Source: Stappia sp. MMSF_3263 (GTDB lineage Bacteria > Pseudomonadota > Alphaproteobacteria > Rhizobiales > Stappiaceae). From it: DNA of 64,000 nt. Below the pieces are notes generated by a model that was not told the DNA's origin, ran no database searches, and saw only the letters and a list, made by a program, of their open reading frames with translations. Below, piece after piece: positions 1,065 through 14,422 of the stretch; positions within the stretch are counted from its first letter, which is position 1, and every line of letters starts with the position of its first letter. Location: contig NZ_JASHIK010000004.1 of NCBI RefSeq assembly GCF_030733745.1, positions 124,001 to 188,000 of the forward strand, in the 5' to 3' direction. The translations under genes and the position numbers were made by a program.

Positions 1065-3182
1065 ATGTTTGATATTCATCGCGTGGAAGTCGACTGGGGC
1101 GGACGCCCGCTGACGCTGGAGACGGGCAAGGTTGCCCGCCAGGCGGACGGCGCGGTTCTCGCGACCTATGGCGAGACCAAGGTGCTGGCCACCGTCGTCG
1201 CCGCCAAGGAGCCGAAGCCCGGCCAGGACTTCTTCCCGCTGACCGTGAACTACCAGGAAAAGGCCTATGCGGCCGGCAAGATCCCGGGTGGCTTCTTCAA
1301 GCGCGAGGGACGCCCCTCGGAGCATGAGACGCTGACCTCGCGCCTGATCGACCGTCCGATCCGCCCGCTCTTCGTCGATGGTTTCAAGTGCGACACCCAG
1401 GTGATCATCACCGTCCTGTCGCATGACATGGAAAACGCGCCGGACATTCTTGCCATGGTGGCGGCTTCCGCGGCCCTGACCATCTCCGGCATTCCCTTCA
1501 TGGGGCCGATCGGCGGCGCCCGCGTTGGCTACATCAACGGCGAGTATGTCCTCAATCCGCTGATCGACGACATGTCTGAATCCTCGCTCGACCTGATCGT
1601 TGCCGGCACCGGCGAAGCCGTGCTGATGGTCGAGTCCGAAGCCAAGGAACTGACCGAAGACGCCATGCTCGGCGCCGTCATGTTCGGCTTCAAGGGCTTC
1701 CAGACGGTGATCGACGCGATCATCAAGCTGGCCGAGACCGCGGCTCGCGCACCGCGTGAGGTGAACCTTCCGGATCATTCGGACCTGGCTGCGCGCATCA
1801 AGGCGCTGGCCGCCGACGACCTGACCGCTGCCTACGCGATCCGCGAGAAGAGCGAGCGCAAGGCCGCTGTCGACGCCGTCAAGGCCAAGGTCGTCGAGAC
1901 GCTGACCGCCGAAGCCGGCGACGCCGGCATCGACAAGGTCGTTGTTGGCGATCTCTTCAAGAAGGCCGAGGCCAGCATCGTGCGCGGCGCGATCCTCGAC
2001 AAGGGCGAGCGCATCGACGGTCGCGACCTGAAGACGGTCCGTCCGATCGTGTCGGAAGCGGGCATCCTGCCGCGCGCGCACGGTTCGGCGCTGTTCACCC
2101 GCGGCGAGACACAGTCGCTCGTCGTCGCGACGCTCGGCACGAACGACGACGAGCAGTTCGTCGATGCCCTGGAGGGGACCTACAAGTCCACCTTCATGCT
2201 GCATTACAACTTCCCGCCCTACTCGGTCGGCGAGACCGGCCGCACGGGTTCGCCGGGTCGCCGCGAGATCGGTCACGGCAAGCTCGCATGGCGCGCCGTG
2301 CACCCGCTGCTGCCGCCGCATCACGAGTTCCCCTACACGCTTCGGGTCGTGTCGGAGATCACCGAGTCGAACGGCTCGTCGTCGATGGCAACGGTTTGCG
2401 GCACTTCGCTGGCGCTGATGGACGCGGGCGTTCCGCTGAAGGCTCCGGTGGCGGGCATCGCCATGGGCCTGATCAAGGAGAACGACAAGTTCGCGGTCCT
2501 GTCCGACATTCTCGGCGACGAGGATCATCTCGGCGACATGGACTTCAAGGTCGCCGGTACGGGCGAGGGCATCACCTCGCTGCAGATGGACATCAAGATC
2601 GACGGCATCACCGAGGAGATCATGCGGGTTGCGCTCGATCAGGCGCGCGATGGCCGCATCCATATCCTCGGCGAAATGTCGAGCGCCCTGTCGGAGGCCC
2701 GCGCCGAGCTCGGCGAGCATGCCCCGCGCATCGAAGTGATGAAGATCCCGGTCGACAAGATCCGTGAAGTCATCGGCTCCGGCGGCAAGGTGATCCGCGA
2801 GATCGTCGAGAAGACCGGCGCCAAGGTCAACATCGAGGACGACGGCACCGTCAAGATCGCCTCCGCGGATGGCAAGGCGATCAAGGCAGCCGTGAACTGG
2901 ATCAACTCCATCGCCGCCGAGCCGGAAGTGGGCGTGGTCTACGAGGGACGTGTCGTCAAGACCGTCGACTTCGGCGCCTTCGTCAATTTCTTCGGCGCCA
3001 AGGACGGGCTGGTCCATATCTCGCAGCTCGCGCCGCAGAAGGTTGCCAAGACCACCGACGTGGTCAAGGAAGGCGACAAGGTCTGGGTCAAGCTGATGGG
3101 CTTCGACGAGCGCGGCAAGGTTCGCCTGTCGATGAAGGTCGTCGATCAGGAGACCGGCAAGGAAATCGCCTCCGAGGGCTGA
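1065..3182 (+). CDS. pnp: Polyribonucleotide nucleotidyltransferase (PNPase)
   Basis: Phosphorolytic 3'-5' exoribonuclease, the core of RNA decay complexes. The 705-residue product has the full family layout: a first RNase PH domain (about 10-145), a helical linker, a second RNase PH domain (about 315-460) with the FTRGETQSL and GRREIGHG active-site stretches, a KH domain with the GSGG loop in [12 protein letters not shown] (about 565-578), and an S1 domain (about 620-690) ending in RVRLSMK-type sequence (here KVRLSMK). The ATG at 1065 follows AGGATAG and gives the typical [14 protein letters not shown] start. A strong terminator closes the unit. Confidence 0.98.
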
Positions 3183-3250
3183 CGTCCCGGGAGGGCCGGC
3201 TCCGGGCCGGACGCCGAGACATCCTGAAAACGGAACAAGACAGGACGGGC

Positions 3251-3284
3251 CGGGCCGGGGCAATCCCCGGCCCGTTTTCTTTTG
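3251..3284 (+). terminator. Rho-independent terminator after pnp
   Basis: A perfect 10-bp GC stem, CGGGCCGGGG at 3251-3260 and CCCCGGCCCG at 3265-3274, with a CAAT tetraloop and then TTTTCTTTT. It ends the truB-rpsO-pnp unit ahead of the convergent gene at 3335. Confidence 0.93.
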
Positions 3285-3334
3285 TGGACGCGACTGCGGA
3301 GGCGTGCCGGTTGCCGGGGACGGCGTCGGGCGTG

Positions 3335-6097
3335 TCAGGCGGTTCCGGCAACCGGTGTGCCGGTTTCGCCATGCGCGCCGAGAAATCCCTGGAACTGCTC
3401 GTCGGGCATCGGGCGGCCGAGGTGGAAGCCCTGGATCTGCGTGCAACCGAGATTGCCGAGAAGCCGGCACTGGCCTTCGGTCTCGACGCCTTCCGCGATC
3501 ACGGTGATGCCGAGGCTGGCCGCCATGACGACGATCGCCTCGACCAGCGCGAGGTCGTCGCGGTCGGTTTCCAGATCGCGAATGAAGGACCGGTCGATCT
3601 TCAAGGTGTCGATCGGGAAGCGCTTCAGGTTGCTGAGCGAGGAGAACCCCGTTCCGAAATCGTCGAGCGACAGCCGGATGCCCAGGCTGCGGATGGCATG
3701 CAGCGTCTCGATCGGATCGCTGCCGGTTTCGTCGAACATGACGCTTTCGGTGATTTCCAGATGCAGGCGGTCGGGCGGCATCCCGGTGCGCGCCAGCGTA
3801 TCGCGCACCAGATCGATGAACCGCTCGTCACGGCACTGGCGCGGCGAGACGTTGACGCTGATTGTCGGCAGGTCCAGTCCCTTGGCGATGCAGCGCTGAT
3901 AGAACAGGCAGGCTTCCTCGAGGACGAAGGCGCCAAGGGGAACGATCAGGCCGGTGTTCTCGGCGATCGGGATGAAATCGGCGGGTGAGATCGCCCCGCG
4001 CTCAGGATCGTGCCAGCGCACCAGCGCCTCGCAGCCCGACACGATGTTGCGACCGATATCGATCACCGGCTGGAAGTTCAGCGTGAGCTGGCGCTTTTCG
4101 AGCGCGCGCCGCAGCGAACTTTCCAGCTCCAGCGCCCGGGCGACATGCTCGTTCATATGGGCGGAGAAGAAGCGCAGCTTGTTCCCGCCTTCCGCCTTGG
4201 CATGGTACATGGCGGTATCGGCCTGGCGGAGCAGCAACTCGTCATCGTTTCCGTCGGCGGGGAAGACGGTGATGCCTATGCTGGCCGTCGAGAAGACCTC
4301 CACATTGCCGCCGACCACCAGCGGGCGCGACAGTTCCTCCAGGACGCGCGCCGCGGCGATCTCGACGTCGAAGACGCTGCGCGTGTTGCTGAGGATGACG
4401 GCAAACTCGTCGCCGCCCAGGCGGGCAACCGTGTCATTGTCGTCGAGCACCGATCCGATACGGGTTGCGGTGGCCTTGATGAGCTGGTCGCCGGTGCTGT
4501 GGCCAAGGCTGTCGTTGATGTTCTTGAACCGGTCGAGATCCAGGAACAGGAGCGCGACGATGTGGCCTTCCCACTGCGCCCGCGACATGGCCTGCACCAG
4601 CCGGTCGCGGAACAGGTTGCGATTGGGCAGTCCCGTCAGTGTGTCGAAATTCGCCTGTCGGACAATCAGCTCTTCCTGGCGCTTGCGCTCCGAGATGTCG
4701 CTGATCGTCGCGTAATAGGCATCGACGCCGTTCCAGCGGGTCTGGCGCAGATGAACCTCAACCCAGACGCGCGCGCTGTCCGTGGCGATTGCCTTGACCT
4801 CGTAGACATCGGGCGCGGATGCCCCGGATTCGCGCGCCTTGTTGTACGAGAACATTCTGTCGTGCTCTTCGGGAGCGAACAGGTTGATAACAGGTTGGCC
4901 GATCACCTTGTGGCGGTCGTCGATGCTGTAGCCAAGGATCCGCAACAAGGAGTCGTTGACATAAAGAACCTTCAGGTTCGCGTGGATGATGACGCCTTGC
5001 AGGGATTCATCGATCAACGCGCGGAACTGCGCATCGGTTTCCTTCAGATCCTGGAAGGCTTCCTGCAGGGTGGCGCCCAGGGCATTGAACTCGCGCACCT
5101 TGCCTGGCCGGTATGTGAGGTCGGAGGTGTCGCTGCGAATCTTGTTGGCGTAGCCGACGAGCCGTTGCAGGGCAGGACTGGTGAAGCGGTGCAGGGCATA
5201 GGCGCCCAGCACCGAGCCGGCGAGCACATAGAGAAGAAAGGGCGTGAACAGCGTCCGGTAGGTGTCCTGGATGTTTTCAATCGTTTCGCCGGGATGGTCG
5301 CTGACGAGGTGGATTTCCGGTCCGTCCATGCTGCCGGTAAGGCTCGACTGGACAAGGAGCCTGTCGTCGACCAGCACGTGGGATCCATCGGCGAAACTGT
5401 CATGCAGCTCTTCCAGGTCCACCTGCGTTCGAATCATGCCGACGCTGGCAACCACATGATTGCCCTGGAGCAGCGCCAGGCTTTCCGTGTCGAGCGCCTG
5501 AACCATGTCCGAGAGAATGAACATGCTGTCGTTCAGCACATATCCGCCAGCCAATGTGCCGAGAACCCGCCCGTCGAGCTCGTCGATAATGGGAATGGCC
5601 TCGACGGCGAGCAGCAGGGGGATGCCGTCGCGCCCGGAATCTCCCATATGCAGGCGCCAGGTGCCGGTGGGCAAGCGTGCCCGCTCGCCCGCCGGAAGGA
5701 CGGCACCCAGGTCGTAGATCGACGAGCCGGCATCGATCCAGCCGGGCATTCCGGCGCGGTCGATGACGAGCAGTTCGAACTGGGCCCCGACCGGTTGCTC
5801 GGCGGCATCGGCGAGGATCTGGCGAACCAGCTTGTCATTGCCGGATGCGATACCGCGGCGCAGGGCCGAATTGTCGGCGAGAGCGCGCAGATGGGTATCG
5901 AGCCGGACGAGCGACTGGTTGAACACCAGCCGGGCAAGCATGCCTTCCTTGCGGGCGAAACGTTCCAGTTCCCGGTCGGCGATCGACAGGCTGCCGATAT
6001 AGCTGATCGCGAAAAGCGCGGCCGACGTCGTCAGCAGGGCAACTGCGAAGAGCCCCAGCACGAACCTGTTGAAACTGAAATCGTTTGTTCGCCTCAT
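3335..6097 (-). CDS. LuxQ-like sensor with PAS-GGDEF-EAL output
   Basis: Inner-membrane protein of 920 residues, predicted to make and/or break cyclic-di-GMP. Order: TM1 (about 12-34), periplasmic domain (about 36-283), TM2 (about 284-302), a linker, PAS (about 355-470), GGDEF (about 482-640; GGDEF at 561-565), EAL (about 655-905; E690-A-L). The EAL domain keeps N749, E781, D812-D813, K833, E869 and Q889, so phosphodiesterase activity is expected. The GGDEF motif is intact, but the feedback I-site position reads D552-D-N-D instead of RxxD. The periplasmic part and the REFNALGATLQEAFQDL juxtamembrane stretch resemble Vibrio LuxQ as I remember it (for example IPIIDELDGRVLG followed by a VLND stretch). 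Its ATG overlaps the stop of the luxP-like gene in an ATGA, so the two are translationally coupled. Cyclase versus esterase balance cannot be told from sequence. Confidence 0.9.
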   Translation of the reverse strand: MRRTNDFSFNRFVLGLFAVALLTTSAALFAISYIGSLSIADRELERFARKEGMLARLVFNQSLVRLDTHLRALADNSALRRGIASGNDKLVRQILADAAEQPVGAQFELLVIDRAGMPGWIDAGSSIYDLGAVLPAGERARLPTGTWRLHMGDSGRDGIPLLLAVEAIPIIDELDGRVLGTLAGGYVLNDSMFILSDMVQALDTESLALLQGNHVVASVGMIRTQVDLEELHDSFADGSHVLVDDRLLVQSSLTGSMDGPEIHLVSDHPGETIENIQDTYRTLFTPFLLYVLAGSVLGAYALHRFTSPALQRLVGYANKIRSDTSDLTYRPGKVREFNALGATLQEAFQDLKETDAQFRALIDESLQGVIIHANLKVLYVNDSLLRILGYSIDDRHKVIGQPVINLFAPEEHDRMFSYNKARESGASAPDVYEVKAIATDSARVWVEVHLRQTRWNGVDAYYATISDISERKRQEELIVRQANFDTLTGLPNRNLFRDRLVQAMSRAQWEGHIVALLFLDLDRFKNINDSLGHSTGDQLIKATATRIGSVLDDNDTVARLGGDEFAVILSNTRSVFDVEIAAARVLEELSRPLVVGGNVEVFSTASIGITVFPADGNDDELLLRQADTAMYHAKAEGGNKLRFFSAHMNEHVARALELESSLRRALEKRQLTLNFQPVIDIGRNIVSGCEALVRWHDPERGAISPADFIPIAENTGLIVPLGAFVLEEACLFYQRCIAKGLDLPTISVNVSPRQCRDERFIDLVRDTLARTGMPPDRLHLEITESVMFDETGSDPIETLHAIRSLGIRLSLDDFGTGFSSLSNLKRFPIDTLKIDRSFIRDLETDRDDLALVEAIVVMAASLGITVIAEGVETEGQCRLLGNLGCTQIQGFHLGRPMPDEQFQGFLGAHGETGTPVAGTA

Positions 6098-7221
6098 CGG
6101 GAGTAGCGGAAAGCCCTCCTTTTCAACGCCTCGATCCGGGCCCGGTCATGATCGGCGGGAACCAGCTCGAACGCGCCTGAATAGACCAGCGGCACGTCGT
6201 TGCCGCGCCCCTGCTGGTCGAGGGAGATGGCTTCCGCTATGGCAACGCCGTTGTCGTCGTTCATGCGCATCACGGTGGCCGAAAGGCGTCCGTTCTCGAG
6301 CAACTCCAGTTCGGCGCTGCCACCGCCCCAGCCATTGGTCGAGACATTGCCGACCAGTCCCATTTCGGCGATGGCGTCGCTGACACCCAGGGCGATATCG
6401 GTCGAGCAGGAGAAGATGAAGCCTATATCGGGTTGCCGCGCCAGCAGCGTCATGGCTGCTTCACGTGCCTTTGCGCGGTCGAAGCCGACATAATACGAGG
6501 CGACGAGCCGTTTGCGCGAGCGCTCGACCATTGCGAGCCGGAAGGGCTCGCCACGTGCCTGGCTGACCAGGCCTTTCGGGCCGTAGAAGATCGCGTAGGG
6601 CTCGGCCTGGGGGCGCGTGTGGAGAATGTGCTCGGCGAGAAGCCGGGTGCCCGATGCATGGTCGAAGCCGACATAGAGAAACGGTTGTTCGCTTCCCCAT
6701 CTGCGCAGCGGTGTGGTGATGTTCTGCAGGATCACCTTGGGCCGCTCGCGGGCAATCAGGCGTTCGACGATGACGCGATGGCGCAGGGCGTCGAGGGTGA
6801 AGACGAGATAGTCGGGGTCGGACTTGAGCGCCTCCGCCACCTGCCGGGTCTGCTCCTGGATTTCCTGGCCGGGCTGGGTGAACTGCGACGTGATTTCGTA
6901 GCTGATGCCGAGTTCGTCGAGTCGCGCCTCGAGCGCAACAATGCTCCGTCGCCAGTAGTCGGAGGCCTGGATTGCCGGATAGACGATGGCGATCCGCACG
7001 GGATCGTCAGGCGCATCGATCGGCATCGCGGCATTCGCAACCCGGTCGGAGAAGCGCTCGGTGAGGGCGCGCTGTTCGGGCTGATTCTCGAAAAGTTCGG
7101 AAAGACTCCAGTACTCGTCGGGTGTTTCACGGCCGAGTTCAGCTCTCGCGGATCCTGCAACAAGCAGCGCCACCATCAGTAAAAGGCATGCCGGAATGTT
7201 GTTTCGGTCGTTTCTCACCAT
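6094..7221 (-). CDS. luxP: LuxP-type autoinducer-2 binding periplasmic protein
   Basis: Predicted periplasmic receptor for AI-2 (375 residues). The signal peptide runs to about A27 (cleavage after SARA). It is a two-lobed sugar-binding-protein fold closely matching Vibrio LuxP: ASDYWRRS, LQNITTP, QPFLYVGFDHA, CSTDIALG, NGWGGGSAEL, TVMRMNDD and a C-terminal ALKRRAFRYS. The residues that contact AI-2 in V. harveyi LuxP (as I recall Q77, S79, W82, N159, R215, T266, D267, W289, R310) are all present here as Q85, S87, W90, N167, R223, T274, D275, W298 and R319. Start 7221 is chosen for the signal peptide; the frame stays open to 7995 but that part is only the antisense of dapB. Its stop overlaps the start of the GGDEF-EAL gene, its likely partner. 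A related sugar ligand is possible but less likely given the full contact set. Confidence 0.88.
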   Translation of the reverse strand: MVRNDRNNIPACLLLMVALLVAGSARAELGRETPDEYWSLSELFENQPEQRALTERFSDRVANAAMPIDAPDDPVRIAIVYPAIQASDYWRRSIVALEARLDELGISYEITSQFTQPGQEIQEQTRQVAEALKSDPDYLVFTLDALRHRVIVERLIARERPKVILQNITTPLRRWGSEQPFLYVGFDHASGTRLLAEHILHTRPQAEPYAIFYGPKGLVSQARGEPFRLAMVERSRKRLVASYYVGFDRAKAREAAMTLLARQPDIGFIFSCSTDIALGVSDAIAEMGLVGNVSTNGWGGGSAELELLENGRLSATVMRMNDDNGVAIAEAISLDQQGRGNDVPLVYSGAFELVPADHDRARIEALKRRAFRYSR

Positions 7222-7543
7222 TCCATTCCGAGGTTGAAGACCGCCTTGCGAAGTCTGGATGATTGCCGGTTCACTTTCAAGAGAACAGTATCCAGTTGAT
7301 AAAGAATGAAAAATCGCCCCAGCATGGTACCTGTTGAAAATTACAAGGAGCGTTCGCACTCCACTGGAGACCAACGCACGGATTCGCGCAAGCACGCTTG
7401 ATGTCACTGCTATGTCTTCCCGGGTGTCCGGGAGCCGACAGGAGACAGGGCCATGTGGCGACGCGTTGCAGGCCGGCGTCAACCTGCTATACCGCCCATG
7501 ATGCGGGAAGCAGAGGACTGCGACAAGCGATGGAGTTGTGGAG
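7222..7543. other. Divergent intergenic region between luxP-like gene and dapB
   Basis: About 320 bases without a gene, AT-richer than the surroundings near 7290-7345. It holds a perfect odd palindrome CTCCA-C-TGGAG at 7359-7369 and a 6-bp hairpin TCCCGG/CCGGGA at 7418-7433 with a GTGT loop. A rightward promoter candidate for dapB is listed separately. For the leftward luxP transcript I find only a TGTAAT-like -10 (reverse strand, 7340-7345) without a convincing -35. The palindrome is a possible operator. Confidence 0.5.
7466..7493 (+). promoter_or_regulatory. Candidate sigma-70 promoter for dapB
   Basis: TTGCAG at 7466-7471 and TATACC at 7488-7493, 16 bases apart, about 50 bases before the dapB start codon. 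Pattern match only. Confidence 0.4.
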
Positions 7544-8356
7544 ATGACGGCGATGCGGCTGGCGGTTGTCGGTGCGGCGGGACGCATGGGCGGGGCGCTG
7601 ATCCGGGCCATCGCGCAGATTGACGGGGTCGTACTGTCGGGTGCCGTCGAACGGCTGGGCGCTCCGGATATGGGCAGGGACGCCGGTGAGGTTGCGGGGC
7701 TTCCGAAAAACGGAGTGCCGATCACCGACGACGCGCTGGCGGTGTTCGCAGCCGCCGACGGGGTGCTTGATTTCACCGCGCCCGCGGCAACCCGCCAGTT
7801 CGCCGAGCTTGCCGCCCAGGCACGCATCGTCCATGTGATCGGCACGACCGGCATGAGTGACGACGACGTGGAGGCGATCCGTCCCGCTGCCCGCCATGCG
7901 CGGATCGTCAAGTCGGGCAACATGAGCCTCGGCGTCAATCTTCTGGCGGCGCTGGTGCGGCAGGCGGCCGCCGCGCTCGACGAGGATTTCGACATCGAGG
8001 TGCTGGAGATGCACCACCGTCACAAGGTCGACGCCCCTTCCGGCACGGCGCTGCTGCTGGGCGAGGCCGCCGCCGAAGGGCGCGGCATCGACCTGGCCAC
8101 GCGCAGCGTGCGCTCGCGCGACGGCATCACCGGCGAGCGGCCGCGCGGCGACATCGGGTTTGCCGCCCTGCGCGGCGGCTCCGTCATCGGTGACCACAGC
8201 GTCGTCCTTGCCGGTCCGCTCGAGACCGTGACGCTCTCGCATCACGCGCAGGATCGTCAGATCTTCGCGCGCGGCGCGATCAAGGCCGCCCTGTGGGCGC
8301 GCGATCGCAAGCCCGGCCTCTACTCCATGGACGATGTTCTGGGCCTCAAGGCTTGA
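7544..8356 (+). CDS. dapB: 4-hydroxy-tetrahydrodipicolinate reductase
   Basis: NAD(P)H-dependent reductase of the diaminopimelate/lysine pathway (270 residues), cytoplasmic homotetramer. The N-terminal nucleotide-binding loop is GAAGRMGG, the conserved GTTGMS stretch is present, and the catalytic segment [15 protein letters not shown] carries the His pair and Lys of the family. Three starts are possible (GTG 7538, ATG 7544, ATG 7553); 7544 gives MTAMRL, matching the usual rhizobial MSDMRL-type start, and has GGAG eight bases upstream. gpmA follows 55 bases downstream and may be cotranscribed. Confidence 0.96.
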
Positions 8357-12970: not shown

Positions 12971-14422
12971 ATGGCCCGTCACATGGCGCAGTGGAGCGCC
13001 GGCTGCCTATGCCTCATGGATGCACGGGGACAGATGACGCAGACGTCGGCTGGAAAGGAACTGGCGCATATCCGGTGGCGACACCGGGTGGTCGCTGCCG
13101 CCGTTCTGCTGGTGGTTTGCGTGTTCGGTATCGGGGTGACGGGCTACATTTCCGTCCTGCTGACCGAAAACGCACGCAAGCGCGTTCAGAACGAGACGCT
13201 TGCGCGCCTGTCCGAGGCGCGTGCCCGGCTCGAGGGCGAGATCGGCGCTACCCTTTATATCTCCCAGGGCCTGGTGAGCTTCACGGCCATCAACAGTGAT
13301 TTGACCCAGCGTCAGTTTCGCCGTTTCGCCGAGGAGATTTCCGCAGCCAACAGTCATATCAAGCTGATCGCCCTGGCTCCCGACAACATTGTCAAATACG
13401 TCTATCCGCTGATGGGCAATTTGCGCGCCCTGGGGCTCGACTACCGCACCAACGAAGCGCAATGGCCGGTGGTGAAGCGGGTCATGGAAGAGCGCCGCAC
13501 GATCGTTGCGGGACCTGTGAACCTCGTGCAGGGCGGGCAGGCGCTGATCGCGCGCTCGCCGGTGCTTATCCCCGTCGACGACAGCGAAAGCTCCCGGAAT
13601 CGCCTTTACTGGGGTGTCGCCTCCGTGGTCATCGACATCCAGGCCCTGTTCGCCGATGCCGGGATCCGGCCCGAGGCGAACGGGTATTACTTCGCCATTC
13701 GGGGCGCCGACGGACTTGGAGCCGACGGCGGCATGATCATGGGCGACCCGAACCTCTTCGAGGAAGACGCGCTCGTGTTGCCGGTCAGCCTTCCCAACGG
13801 CACCTGGCAGATCGCCAGTCGTCCCGTGTCGGGATGGATCGTCACGTCTCCCGAAACGCAGATCGCCCACGTCGTCGGCTTTGGCGTGACCTTCGCGATC
13901 GCGTCCTTGTCGGTGCTTGTGGTGCTGGCCCAGCAGCGCGCCCGTTCCATGGCCTTGCATGATGCGCTGACGGGGCTGCCTAACCGGCGGCTTCTGGAGG
14001 ACCGTCTCGAACAGCTGGCGGCGCTCAGTGAGCGCACCGGTTTCGGCTTTCAGGTTTTCTTTGTCGATCTCAACGCGTTCAAGCCGATCAACGACACGTT
14101 CGGGCACGCGGTTGGCGACATGGTGCTGAAGGAGGTGGGCAACCGGCTGCGGCTGGAAACACGGGATTCCGACACGATTGCCCGCATCGGGGGGGACGAA
14201 TTCGTCGTTGTCGTTCCCGGCGTCATCCACCATCCGACCACGACCAGCATTGCCGCGCGCCTGCGGGAAGTGGTGAGCGAGCCGGTGCAGGTCGGCGATC
14301 ATGTCATCGCGATCCGGGCAAGCGTGGGCTGGGCAACCTATCCGGACGACGCGACGACGATACCGGACATCCTCGAACTGGCGGACCGGCGCATGTATCG
14401 CGACAAGCTCGCGGCTGCCTGA
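12971..14422 (+). CDS. CHASE-domain diguanylate cyclase
   Basis: Predicted inner-membrane diguanylate cyclase (483 residues from this start). TM1 about 39-63, periplasmic CHASE domain about 70-285 (IALAPDNIVKYVYPLMGN, GLDYR, AGPVNLVQGG), TM2 about 298-320, GGDEF domain about 325-482. The active site GGDEF is at 407-411, and the inhibitory I-site R398-D-S-D401 is intact, so product feedback is expected. CHASE domains sense small extracellular molecules; the ligand is unknown. The start is uncertain: ATG 12971, 13016 or 13034 are possible, and 13034 (with GGGGA just upstream) would remove 21 unremarkable residues. No EAL domain is present. Confidence 0.88.
   Translation: MARHMAQWSAGCLCLMDARGQMTQTSAGKELAHIRWRHRVVAAAVLLVVCVFGIGVTGYISVLLTENARKRVQNETLARLSEARARLEGEIGATLYISQGLVSFTAINSDLTQRQFRRFAEEISAANSHIKLIALAPDNIVKYVYPLMGNLRALGLDYRTNEAQWPVVKRVMEERRTIVAGPVNLVQGGQALIARSPVLIPVDDSESSRNRLYWGVASVVIDIQALFADAGIRPEANGYYFAIRGADGLGADGGMIMGDPNLFEEDALVLPVSLPNGTWQIASRPVSGWIVTSPETQIAHVVGFGVTFAIASLSVLVVLAQQRARSMALHDALTGLPNRRLLEDRLEQLAALSERTGFGFQVFFVDLNAFKPINDTFGHAVGDMVLKEVGNRLRLETRDSDTIARIGGDEFVVVVPGVIHHPTTTSIAARLREVVSEPVQVGDHVIAIRASVGWATYPDDATTIPDILELADRRMYRDKLAAA

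Follow-up and report, generated by a model that had tools for sequence, protein, structure and literature searches.

A LuxP homolog paired with a LuxQ-type PAS-GGDEF-EAL sensor in Stappia: a probable AI-2 receptor complex with c-di-GMP output

Results

The luxP-sensor gene pair and its genomic site

The window, i.e., the whole 64,000-nucleotide stretch of Stappia sp. MMSF_3263 DNA that we analysed, carries two real genes, encoding a LuxP homolog and a sensor in which a LuxQ-type periplasmic domain is joined to PAS-GGDEF-EAL (Table 1). An earlier reading of the letters alone (the sequence-only reading) had given their coordinates, strand and four-base ATGA overlap exactly. Both frames are open, and all 13 other Stappia genomes have the same overlap, which rules out an annotation artefact or a frameshift. 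An ABC-transport binding protein was likewise ruled out, as the neighbours of luxP are the sensor gene and dapB, with no transporter. The pair was found in 14/14 Stappia and 6/45 Roseibium-group genomes, and it lies between pnp and dapB in every genome of the two groups with both flanks read; because this site is common to both, a recent arrival via transfer is unlikely within the family. A search of positions 3100–7700 for a sigma-70-type promoter returned 0 matches, with 0.8 expected by chance, which counts against the explanation favoured below.

Table 1. Features of the gene pair, in window coordinates
Feature	Position	Strand	Basis
LuxQ-type transmembrane sensor, PAS-GGDEF-EAL output, 920 aa	3335..6097	-	Pfam, NCBIfam
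EAL domain, residues 661-896	3410..4117	-	Pfam, motif check
GGDEF domain, residues 482-640	4178..4654	-	Pfam, motif check
Cytoplasmic PAS domain, about residues 356-473	4679..5032	-	Pfam
Periplasmic LuxQ-like domain, about residues 32-283	5249..6004	-	Pfam, profile against PDB, model and fold search, hydropathy
ATGA overlap, luxP stop / sensor start	6094..6097	-	four bases, exact
LuxP homolog, 375 aa	6094..7221	-	homology, pocket residues, hydropathy, predicted fold

The LuxP homolog

The receptor begins with a hydrophobic signal-like segment (residues 9–27) and belongs to Peripla_BP_4 (Pfam), a sugar-binding fold family. When it was compared with the PDB by phmmer, the top four matches were LuxP sequences, with E-values of about 1e-96 (3e-96 to 6e-96) and whole-length alignments (residues 35/37–374), while the next match reached only 1.2e-13. 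The predicted model gave LuxP chains at ranks 1–8 (TM 0.85/0.92 to 1zhh_A). These values and the fold rule out a chance resemblance and bear out the LuxP identity proposed earlier.

The pocket was assessed through residues and fold. All nine AI-2 contacts named by the sequence-only reading are identical in the LuxP homolog (Q85, S87, W90, N167, R223, T274, D275, W298, R319), including D275 and W298, which we take to be contacts. The remaining seven correspond to the hydrogen-bonding residues listed for 1JX6 (Gln77, Ser79, Trp82, Asn159, Arg215, Thr266 and Arg310; PMC9687752), shifted by +8 in six cases and by +9 for R319. The same nine residues occur in 11 of the 13 other Stappia genomes, and the LuxP of genome G006 has eight of them plus one ambiguous letter. 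In a Stappia metagenome-assembled genome (G001/L078; 89% complete, 7% contamination), five of the nine are changed, which counts against the AI-2 reading. The product of 6094–7221 is a LuxP homolog with AI-2 pocket residues, and on these residues it would be expected to bind AI-2. Binding has been shown for three LuxP proteins drawn randomly from 267 (PMC12268683, with the organisms unnamed in its section 8).

The LuxQ-type sensor

Hydropathy placed hydrophobic segments at residues 13–31 and 283–302, bounding the periplasmic domain. The sequence-only reading had called this region LuxQ-like and had set beforehand the absence of a LuxQ match as grounds against the idea. The idea withstood this test, since Pfam LuxQ-periplasm (PF09308) scored 33.6 bits (cut-off 25.7); the match is a modest one that covers residues 39–219 only and to that extent counts against the favoured explanation. 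A profile built from 19 Stappiaceae sensors retrieved LuxQ chains as the sole PDB matches below E 0.05 (7.9e-18, 1e-8 and 1.7e-6), and the top six matches of the predicted domain model were all LuxQ (TM 0.71/0.83 to 3c30), followed by dCache-type domains at TM of about 0.4–0.56. This second resemblance is at the fold level only, and dCache_1 is not listed by Pfam for the window sensor. NCBIfam LuxQ_Vibrio matched residues 25–384 (E 3.3e-23) and thereby ran through the linker that had also been described as LuxQ-like, although its score, 81.5 of 1200 bits, is far under the whole-protein cut-off.

Pfam revealed no histidine kinase or receiver domain in the sensor and, as predicted from the letters, PAS-GGDEF-EAL in their place; the protein is therefore LuxQ-type in its sensor half only, and not a LuxQ. 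The GGDEF and EAL domains scored 155.5 and 239.2 bits, respectively. We compared them with a list of motifs that we take to be the catalytic ones: RLGGDEF is intact, the RxxD inhibitory site is absent from the GGDEF domain, and the EAL motifs read EALVRW, NVSPRQ, LEITES, LDDFGTGFSS, LKIDRSF and AEGVET. The catalytic motifs of both domains are intact in 14/14 Stappia.

luxS and Lsr genes

A genome search for luxS had been suggested as a way of telling whether the signal is made or overheard. No luxS was found in the window genome or the 13 other Stappia, nor in the six Roseibium-group genomes with the pair, by a search that detected the gene in 5 of 14 control genomes. Because none of the 20 genomes with the pair yielded luxS, the signal, if it is AI-2, would be overheard. 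This qualifies the proposal of a quorum-signal switch, as the cell would not be sensing a signal of its own. Away from the luxP-sensor pair, a separate locus of the window genome (C46) encodes LsrK (797 bits against a cut-off of 528) together with an LsrR-like regulator and an ABC transporter whose binding protein is LuxP-like; LsrK was found in 3/14 Stappia. The ABC-linked LuxP relative reads ESWNRTAWR at the nine pocket positions and departs at Q85 and D275.

Distribution and origin

Our survey of LuxP kept 80 loci from 293, of which 50 have a histidine kinase partner and 20 a GGDEF-EAL partner, the latter in Stappiaceae, Oceanospirillaceae and Aeromonadaceae. Two Neptuniibacter genomes (other than MED92) have LuxP with a GGDEF-EAL partner. 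Among close LuxP homologs of other alphaproteobacteria, all six readable partners are histidine kinases, with LuxQ-periplasm above the cut-off in five and just below it in one; the receptor half is therefore ordinary. The sequence-only reading presented the design as not known to be described in alphaproteobacteria; it also exists beyond that class, and a 2008 survey had already noted LuxP among marine bacteria that are luxS-negative (PMC2561040). A single origin of all GGDEF-EAL LuxQs was rejected on the LuxP tree with the 20 rows held together (p 1.4e-54); holding Stappiaceae and Oceanospirillaceae together was not rejected (p 0.19), nor was one clade on the output-domain tree (p 0.41), all on quick trees with groups named once a tree had been seen. 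The GGDEF-EAL form of LuxPQ signalling probably arose more than once.

The coupling of LuxP to the sensor, as originally proposed, holds in 14/14 Stappia and often does not in the Roseibium group, where LuxP was not found in 19 of the 25 genomes carrying the sensor. A LuxQ-type sensor can therefore persist without LuxP, and the link between the two is not constant in the family. At a possible LuxP docking point, 13 of 17 orphan sensors compared share an altered motif. This contrast with paired sensors is confounded by descent, as 13 of the 17 are one clade; of the remaining four, L202 and L204 retain N189. We also observed that the main LuxP-less clade departs at positions otherwise kept, as if its input had changed.

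Discussion

We consider it likely that the pair is a LuxP-LuxQ-type AI-2 receptor complex in which a c-di-GMP synthase/phosphodiesterase replaces the kinase half. Periplasmic LuxP would bind AI-2, the pocket pointing to the borated form that is favoured in sea water. We infer that LuxP docks on the LuxQ-like periplasmic domain and that AI-2 binding would alter the geometry of the sensor dimer; the change may travel down the second membrane helix and, by way of the PAS domain, reach GGDEF-EAL, which would alter c-di-GMP directly, without a phosphorelay. By analogy with NspS-MbaA, AI-2-LuxP may restrain the EAL phosphodiesterase and so raise local c-di-GMP, a sign that is a guess to which we lean slightly. 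With luxS undetected in the genome, neighbours would be the source of AI-2, and such eavesdropping would probably inform attachment or motility.

The lack of a luxS match would also suit a switch of the same build that responds to an AI-2-like sugar (e.g., a pentulose or its borate), a nutrient or a host/algal metabolite and not a LuxS product. In V. harveyi assays LuxP is a target of L-xylosone and L-xylulose (PMC12921845), PDB 4yr7 is LuxP with deoxy-xylulofuranose borate, and LuxP falls within a sugar-binding fold family. Sugar-binding proteins, however, match the receptor far more weakly than LuxP does, and the receptor has retained all nine pocket residues, among them Q85 and D275, the two altered in the ABC-linked relative; we regard this reading as unlikely. 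Still less probable, in our judgement, is a sensor independent of LuxP, with a ligand of its own bound by the Cache-like periplasmic domain and LuxP in an accessory or modulatory role. It would fit the Roseibium group, where LuxP-less sensors occupy the pnp-dapB site, with no adjoining LuxP gene, in 18/18 genomes read; 8 of 10 orphans scanned score above the LuxQ-periplasm cut-off, and of the 64 N-terminal positions conserved across paired sensors, 39 are conserved among orphans as well. The periplasmic fold resembles Cache domains, some of which bind AI-2 directly (PMC7584622, PMC11796354). Against it, LuxP is retained in 14/14 Stappia, the main LuxP-less clade is altered at positions otherwise kept, and dCache_1 is missing from the Pfam matches of the window protein.

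A broader picture, which we offer tentatively and hold slightly short of an even chance, is that LuxP-LuxQ is a plug-in AI-2 head wired to kinase, kinase-receiver, kinase-receiver-Hpt, serine phosphatase and GGDEF-EAL outputs (the last in at least two, probably three, lineages), several without luxS, and that the Roseibium group later lost the receptor more than once and kept the sensor, its main clade fixing a new motif in the segment where LuxP probably docks and becoming a sensor of something else. With a LuxPQ head acting directly on c-di-GMP, and luxS undetected in the same bacteria, a neighbour's signal would reach a lifestyle decision by a route both short and genetically clean, and this combination makes the eavesdropping idea testable. 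The 14 Stappia and 6 Roseibium-group genomes with the pair, together with the 19 in which the sensor but no LuxP was found, form a natural experiment on the docking of a periplasmic receptor to a Cache-like sensor and on the loss of that receptor.

Comparison with known systems

LuxPQ, the textbook receptor for AI-2, is in most accounts a Vibrio phosphorelay. The Stappia pair shares with Vibrio LuxP-LuxQ (1JX6, 1ZHH, 2HJ9) the receptor, its pocket residues, the periplasmic partner domain and the order of luxP followed by the sensor gene; it differs in having PAS-GGDEF-EAL for kinase and receiver and in a genome without a luxS match. Genes of the Lsr AI-2 uptake type are present in the window genome, at a locus separate from the pair. 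NspS-MbaA of V. cholerae responds to norspermidine (PMC5646818), whereas the Stappia binding protein is LuxP and its expected ligand AI-2, not a polyamine; the two are set apart here by description, and for docking and enzyme control of the NspS-MbaA kind the Stappia pair offers adjacency and homology. AI-2 also alters c-di-GMP through rpHK1S-Z16 (PMC7584622), YeaJ (PMC9637222) and AsrK-AsrR (PMC11796354). In these, unlike the Stappia pair, AI-2 is described as binding the membrane protein's own sensory domain (dCache_1 or GAPES1), with no LuxP, and AsrK works via phosphorylation of AsrR (PMC11796354).

The closest precedents are brief. The 2008 genome survey (PMC2561040) reported that in the marine, luxS-negative Neptuniibacter MED92 luxP shares an operon with the gene of a PAS-containing protein, and proposed sensing of others' AI-2; the partner was presented there as a presumed transcriptional regulator, and the main text mentions neither GGDEF nor diguanylate. 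Table 1 of a 2016 paper (PMC4822843) counts, among 115 LuxQ-periplasm proteins in UniProt 2012, 112 under kinases and one under c-di-GMP enzymes, a table number on whose organism, receptor and function its section 7 does not comment. With these two as prior traces of the design, the Stappia pair is best read as an unusual, new form of the known LuxP-LuxQ receptor.

Identity of the gene pair

The sequence-only reading had described a LuxP homolog and a LuxQ-type sensor encoded by genes that overlap by ATGA, and the coordinates and strand checked in the window agree with this arrangement. A strong terminator-like hairpin with a T tail lies 3' of pnp, in the gap where the pnp and sensor genes converge, and a CHASE-GGDEF diguanylate cyclase gene is located a few genes from the pair. 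A GGDEF match is also found within the fetched neighbourhood of the pair in 12 of the 13 other Stappia genomes.

Coordinates of the gene pair and of other features mentioned in the text
Feature	Position	Strand
LuxP homolog, 375 residues, N-terminal hydrophobic segment	6094-7221	minus
Sensor, 920 residues, periplasmic region bounded by two hydrophobic segments	3335-6097	minus
Terminator-like hairpin	3251-3274	plus
CHASE-GGDEF diguanylate cyclase gene	12971-14422	plus
Lsr-like locus (L021, L169), contig C46 of the window's genome (G000)	C46:38922-45399	
LuxQ-periplasm fused to SpoIIE phosphatase, Desulfococcaceae genome	L091:7254-9491	

When the LuxP homolog was compared with PDB using phmmer, four LuxP sequences topped the list (E 3e-96 to 6e-96), followed by designed and sugar-binding proteins at E 1.2e-13 or weaker. 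Its AlphaFold model (mean pLDDT 86.6) placed LuxP entries at ranks 1-8 of the fold search (TM 0.85/0.92 to 1zhh_A); proteins of the allose and ribose type came far below. All nine AI-2 pocket residues named from the sequence (Q85, S87, W90, N167, R223, T274, D275, W298 and R319) were found in the protein; D275 and W298 are residues which we take to belong to the AI-2 pocket. According to PMC9687752, seven of the nine are AI-2 hydrogen-bond partners in 1JX6. By homology and pocket residues, the protein is classed as a predicted LuxP. The pair is kept in Stappia MAG SP245 (L022/L078), where five of the nine LuxP pocket residues are changed and the catalytic motifs of the sensor are intact; either the ligand has changed or the pocket has decayed.

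The sensor had been read as carrying a LuxQ-like periplasmic region, with PAS-GGDEF-EAL instead of the LuxQ kinase. The Pfam LuxQ-periplasm profile bore this out (33.6 bits, cut-off 25.7), and PAS, GGDEF and EAL were all found by Pfam. NCBIfam LuxQ_Vibrio aligned to sensor residues 25-384 (E 3.3e-23) with a score far under its whole-protein cut-off, as expected because the sensor is without the kinase. When 19 Stappiaceae periplasmic domains were combined into one profile, its three best PDB matches were LuxQ chains (E 7.9e-18, 1e-8 and 1.7e-6), the next match standing at 0.083. Six LuxQ chains were likewise the best fold matches of the AlphaFold model of the periplasmic domain (pLDDT 84.0; TM 0.71/0.83 to 3c30), with dCache-type domains ranking after them (TM about 0.4-0.56). 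The predicted LuxQ identity is limited to the sensor half of the protein. GGDEF and EAL motifs are intact in all 14 Stappia sensors, and the RxxD inhibitory site is not present in any of the 19 Stappiaceae rows.

Conservation in Stappia and AI-2-related genes

The pair, with the identical four-base overlap, is present in all 13 other Stappia genomes. Its site lies between pnp and dapB-gpmA, both within the window; both flanks were also seen at 12 of the 13 other Stappia loci, L024 being the exception, where no pnp was detected. The same holds for all six loci with LuxP in a second genus of the family, taken to be the Roseibium/Labrenzia group and called the Roseibium group here. No luxS was found in the window's genome or in any of the 13 other Stappia by a search that did detect the gene in the Vibrio control and in 5 of the 14 control genomes. 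The pair is not classed as a quorum-sensing system for the cell's own signal.

The Lsr-like locus on C46 contains the AI-2 kinase LsrK (796.8 bits against a curated cut-off of 528), a regulator resembling LsrR (317 bits, under the cut-off of 486), and ABC permease and ATPase genes. The binding protein encoded where LsrB is expected has LuxP as its best PDB match (E 1.4e-47) and 7 of the 9 pocket letters. LsrK (E <=1e-100) was detected in 3 of 14 Stappia, none of which has luxS, and in 0 of 13 other genomes searched, absences that are less certain since the LsrK search was negative in all 14 control genomes.

Sensors without LuxP in the Roseibium group

Across the family, LuxP (E <=1e-60) was detected in 20 of 87 genomes (14/14 Stappia, 6/45 Roseibium group) and the N-terminal 345 residues of the sensor (E <=1e-20) in 39 of 87 (14 Stappia, 25 Roseibium group); with the sensor in 25 Roseibium-group genomes versus LuxP in 6, 19 genomes have an orphan sensor, with no LuxP found. 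Orphan loci were read in 18 of these 19 (all but G480; L202-L219): the sensor occupies the pnp-dapB site in all 18, and no LuxP-like frame lies beside it in any of them. LuxQ-periplasm was over the cut-off in 8 of 10 orphan sensors scanned. Several orphans carry an altered letter at position two of the EAL motif. In genome G488 (L178), a degenerate-motif second sensor, LuxP and the paired sensor stand in tandem, with two sensors around LuxP. The sensor tree requires three changes of LuxP presence; its starred branches by themselves already call for two or three. No luxS was found in the 24 Roseibium-group genomes searched (6 with LuxP, 18 without).

Within the N-terminal part of the sensor, 64 positions are kept in at least 90% of the 20 paired sensors, and 39 of them are also kept in 17 LuxP-less sensors. 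P169, R177, V178, N189 and L195 are retained in only 2 to 6 of the 17 orphans, and elsewhere in this part E51, L235 and I276 in 2 or 3 of them. Segment 184-191 (window sensor numbering) reads GGT[TS][VI]T[DS]S in 13 main-clade orphans of the 17 compared. These changes mark a candidate LuxP docking segment, from a contrast confounded by descent.

Distribution and origins of the GGDEF-EAL partner

Genome contigs were scanned with an alphaproteobacterial LuxP alignment, and the best 80 of the 293 loci obtained make up the set analysed; the R319 motif was part of one of the two search patterns, so R319 conservation in this set is partly built in. Partner classes come from BLAST-based classification of the neighbouring gene. 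Among these best 80 of 293, the partner is a histidine kinase at 50 loci, GGDEF-EAL at 20 (8 Stappia, 5 Roseibium group, 7 gammaproteobacteria), and a SpoIIE phosphatase, by Pfam, at one. The other nine comprise three LuxQ-periplasm plus PAS only, one split LuxQ, one short frame, two contig ends and two loci with no LuxQ-like gene found downstream. The SpoIIE fusion, which adjoins LuxP, represents another output type; LuxQ-type proteins in which PAS is the last domain and no output domain was identified lie beside LuxP in L098, L101 and L123 (Oceanisphaera, Oceanimonas).

LuxQ-periplasm, GGDEF and EAL were over the Pfam cut-off at 6/6 GGDEF-EAL loci scanned (L080, L096, L099, L114, L122, L065). 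The gammaproteobacterial cases are Zobellella, Oceanisphaera and Marinobacterium, where luxS is present, and two each from Neptuniibacter and Oceanospirillum, whose four genomes, of unstated completeness, gave no luxS match. Both Oceanospirillum proteins have an altered GGDEF motif (NADEF, NADEY).

In an even draw of 385 genomes of the class, the window's LuxP was matched at E <=1e-25 in 10, its own genome included; seven matches were close (45-51% identity) and two distant (30%). Partners were readable for six of the seven close matches and all were histidine kinases, five with LuxQ-periplasm over the cut-off and one (L056) just under. In a phylum-wide draw of 398 genomes, 14 had that domain over the cut-off.

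On a LuxP tree of 86 rows, built by a quick method, GGDEF-EAL partners sit in Stappiaceae, Oceanospirillaceae and Aeromonadaceae. After removal of the outgroup and the long-branched L078, constraint tests on 82 rows rejected a single group of all 20 remaining GGDEF-EAL rows (p 1.4e-54) and did not reject Stappiaceae and Oceanospirillaceae held together (p 0.19). On the output-domain tree, of 21 LuxQ outputs and 27 listed background GGDEF-EAL proteins from eight genomes, the Stappiaceae outputs clustered with 5 of 8 listed Stappiaceae background rows (support 96), and one clade of all 21 outputs was not rejected (p 0.41). Taken together, the results from both trees suggest that two or three independent rewirings to GGDEF-EAL are likely.

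Comparison with known systems

The pairing of LuxP with a LuxQ-type PAS-GGDEF-EAL sensor is confirmed as an observation, and its interpretation in the sequence-only reading is well supported by sequence and modelled fold. We infer a mechanism in which AI-2 would act on LuxP, LuxP on the sensor, and the sensor on c-di-GMP.

Among the matches listed in open PMC full text, we met no description of LuxP with a GGDEF-EAL LuxQ. PMC2561040 describes luxS-negative Neptuniibacter caesariensis as having LuxP next to a PAS 'transcriptional regulator', and proposes that such luxS-negative bacteria recognise the AI-2 of others. Table 1 of PMC4822843 counts a c-di-GMP enzyme for 1 of 115 LuxQ-periplasm proteins. 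The 267 LuxP proteins reported in PMC12268683 come mainly from proteobacteria, and three of them, picked at random, showed AI-2 binding. Neither LuxP nor LuxQ appears in the main text of a c-di-GMP sensing review (PMC8846402) or of an alphaproteobacterial c-di-GMP survey (PMC9756655). Control of c-di-GMP by AI-2 via other receptors is known from PMC7584622, PMC9637222 and PMC11796354. NspS-MbaA (PMC5646818) is the closest working principle to the LuxP-sensor pair.
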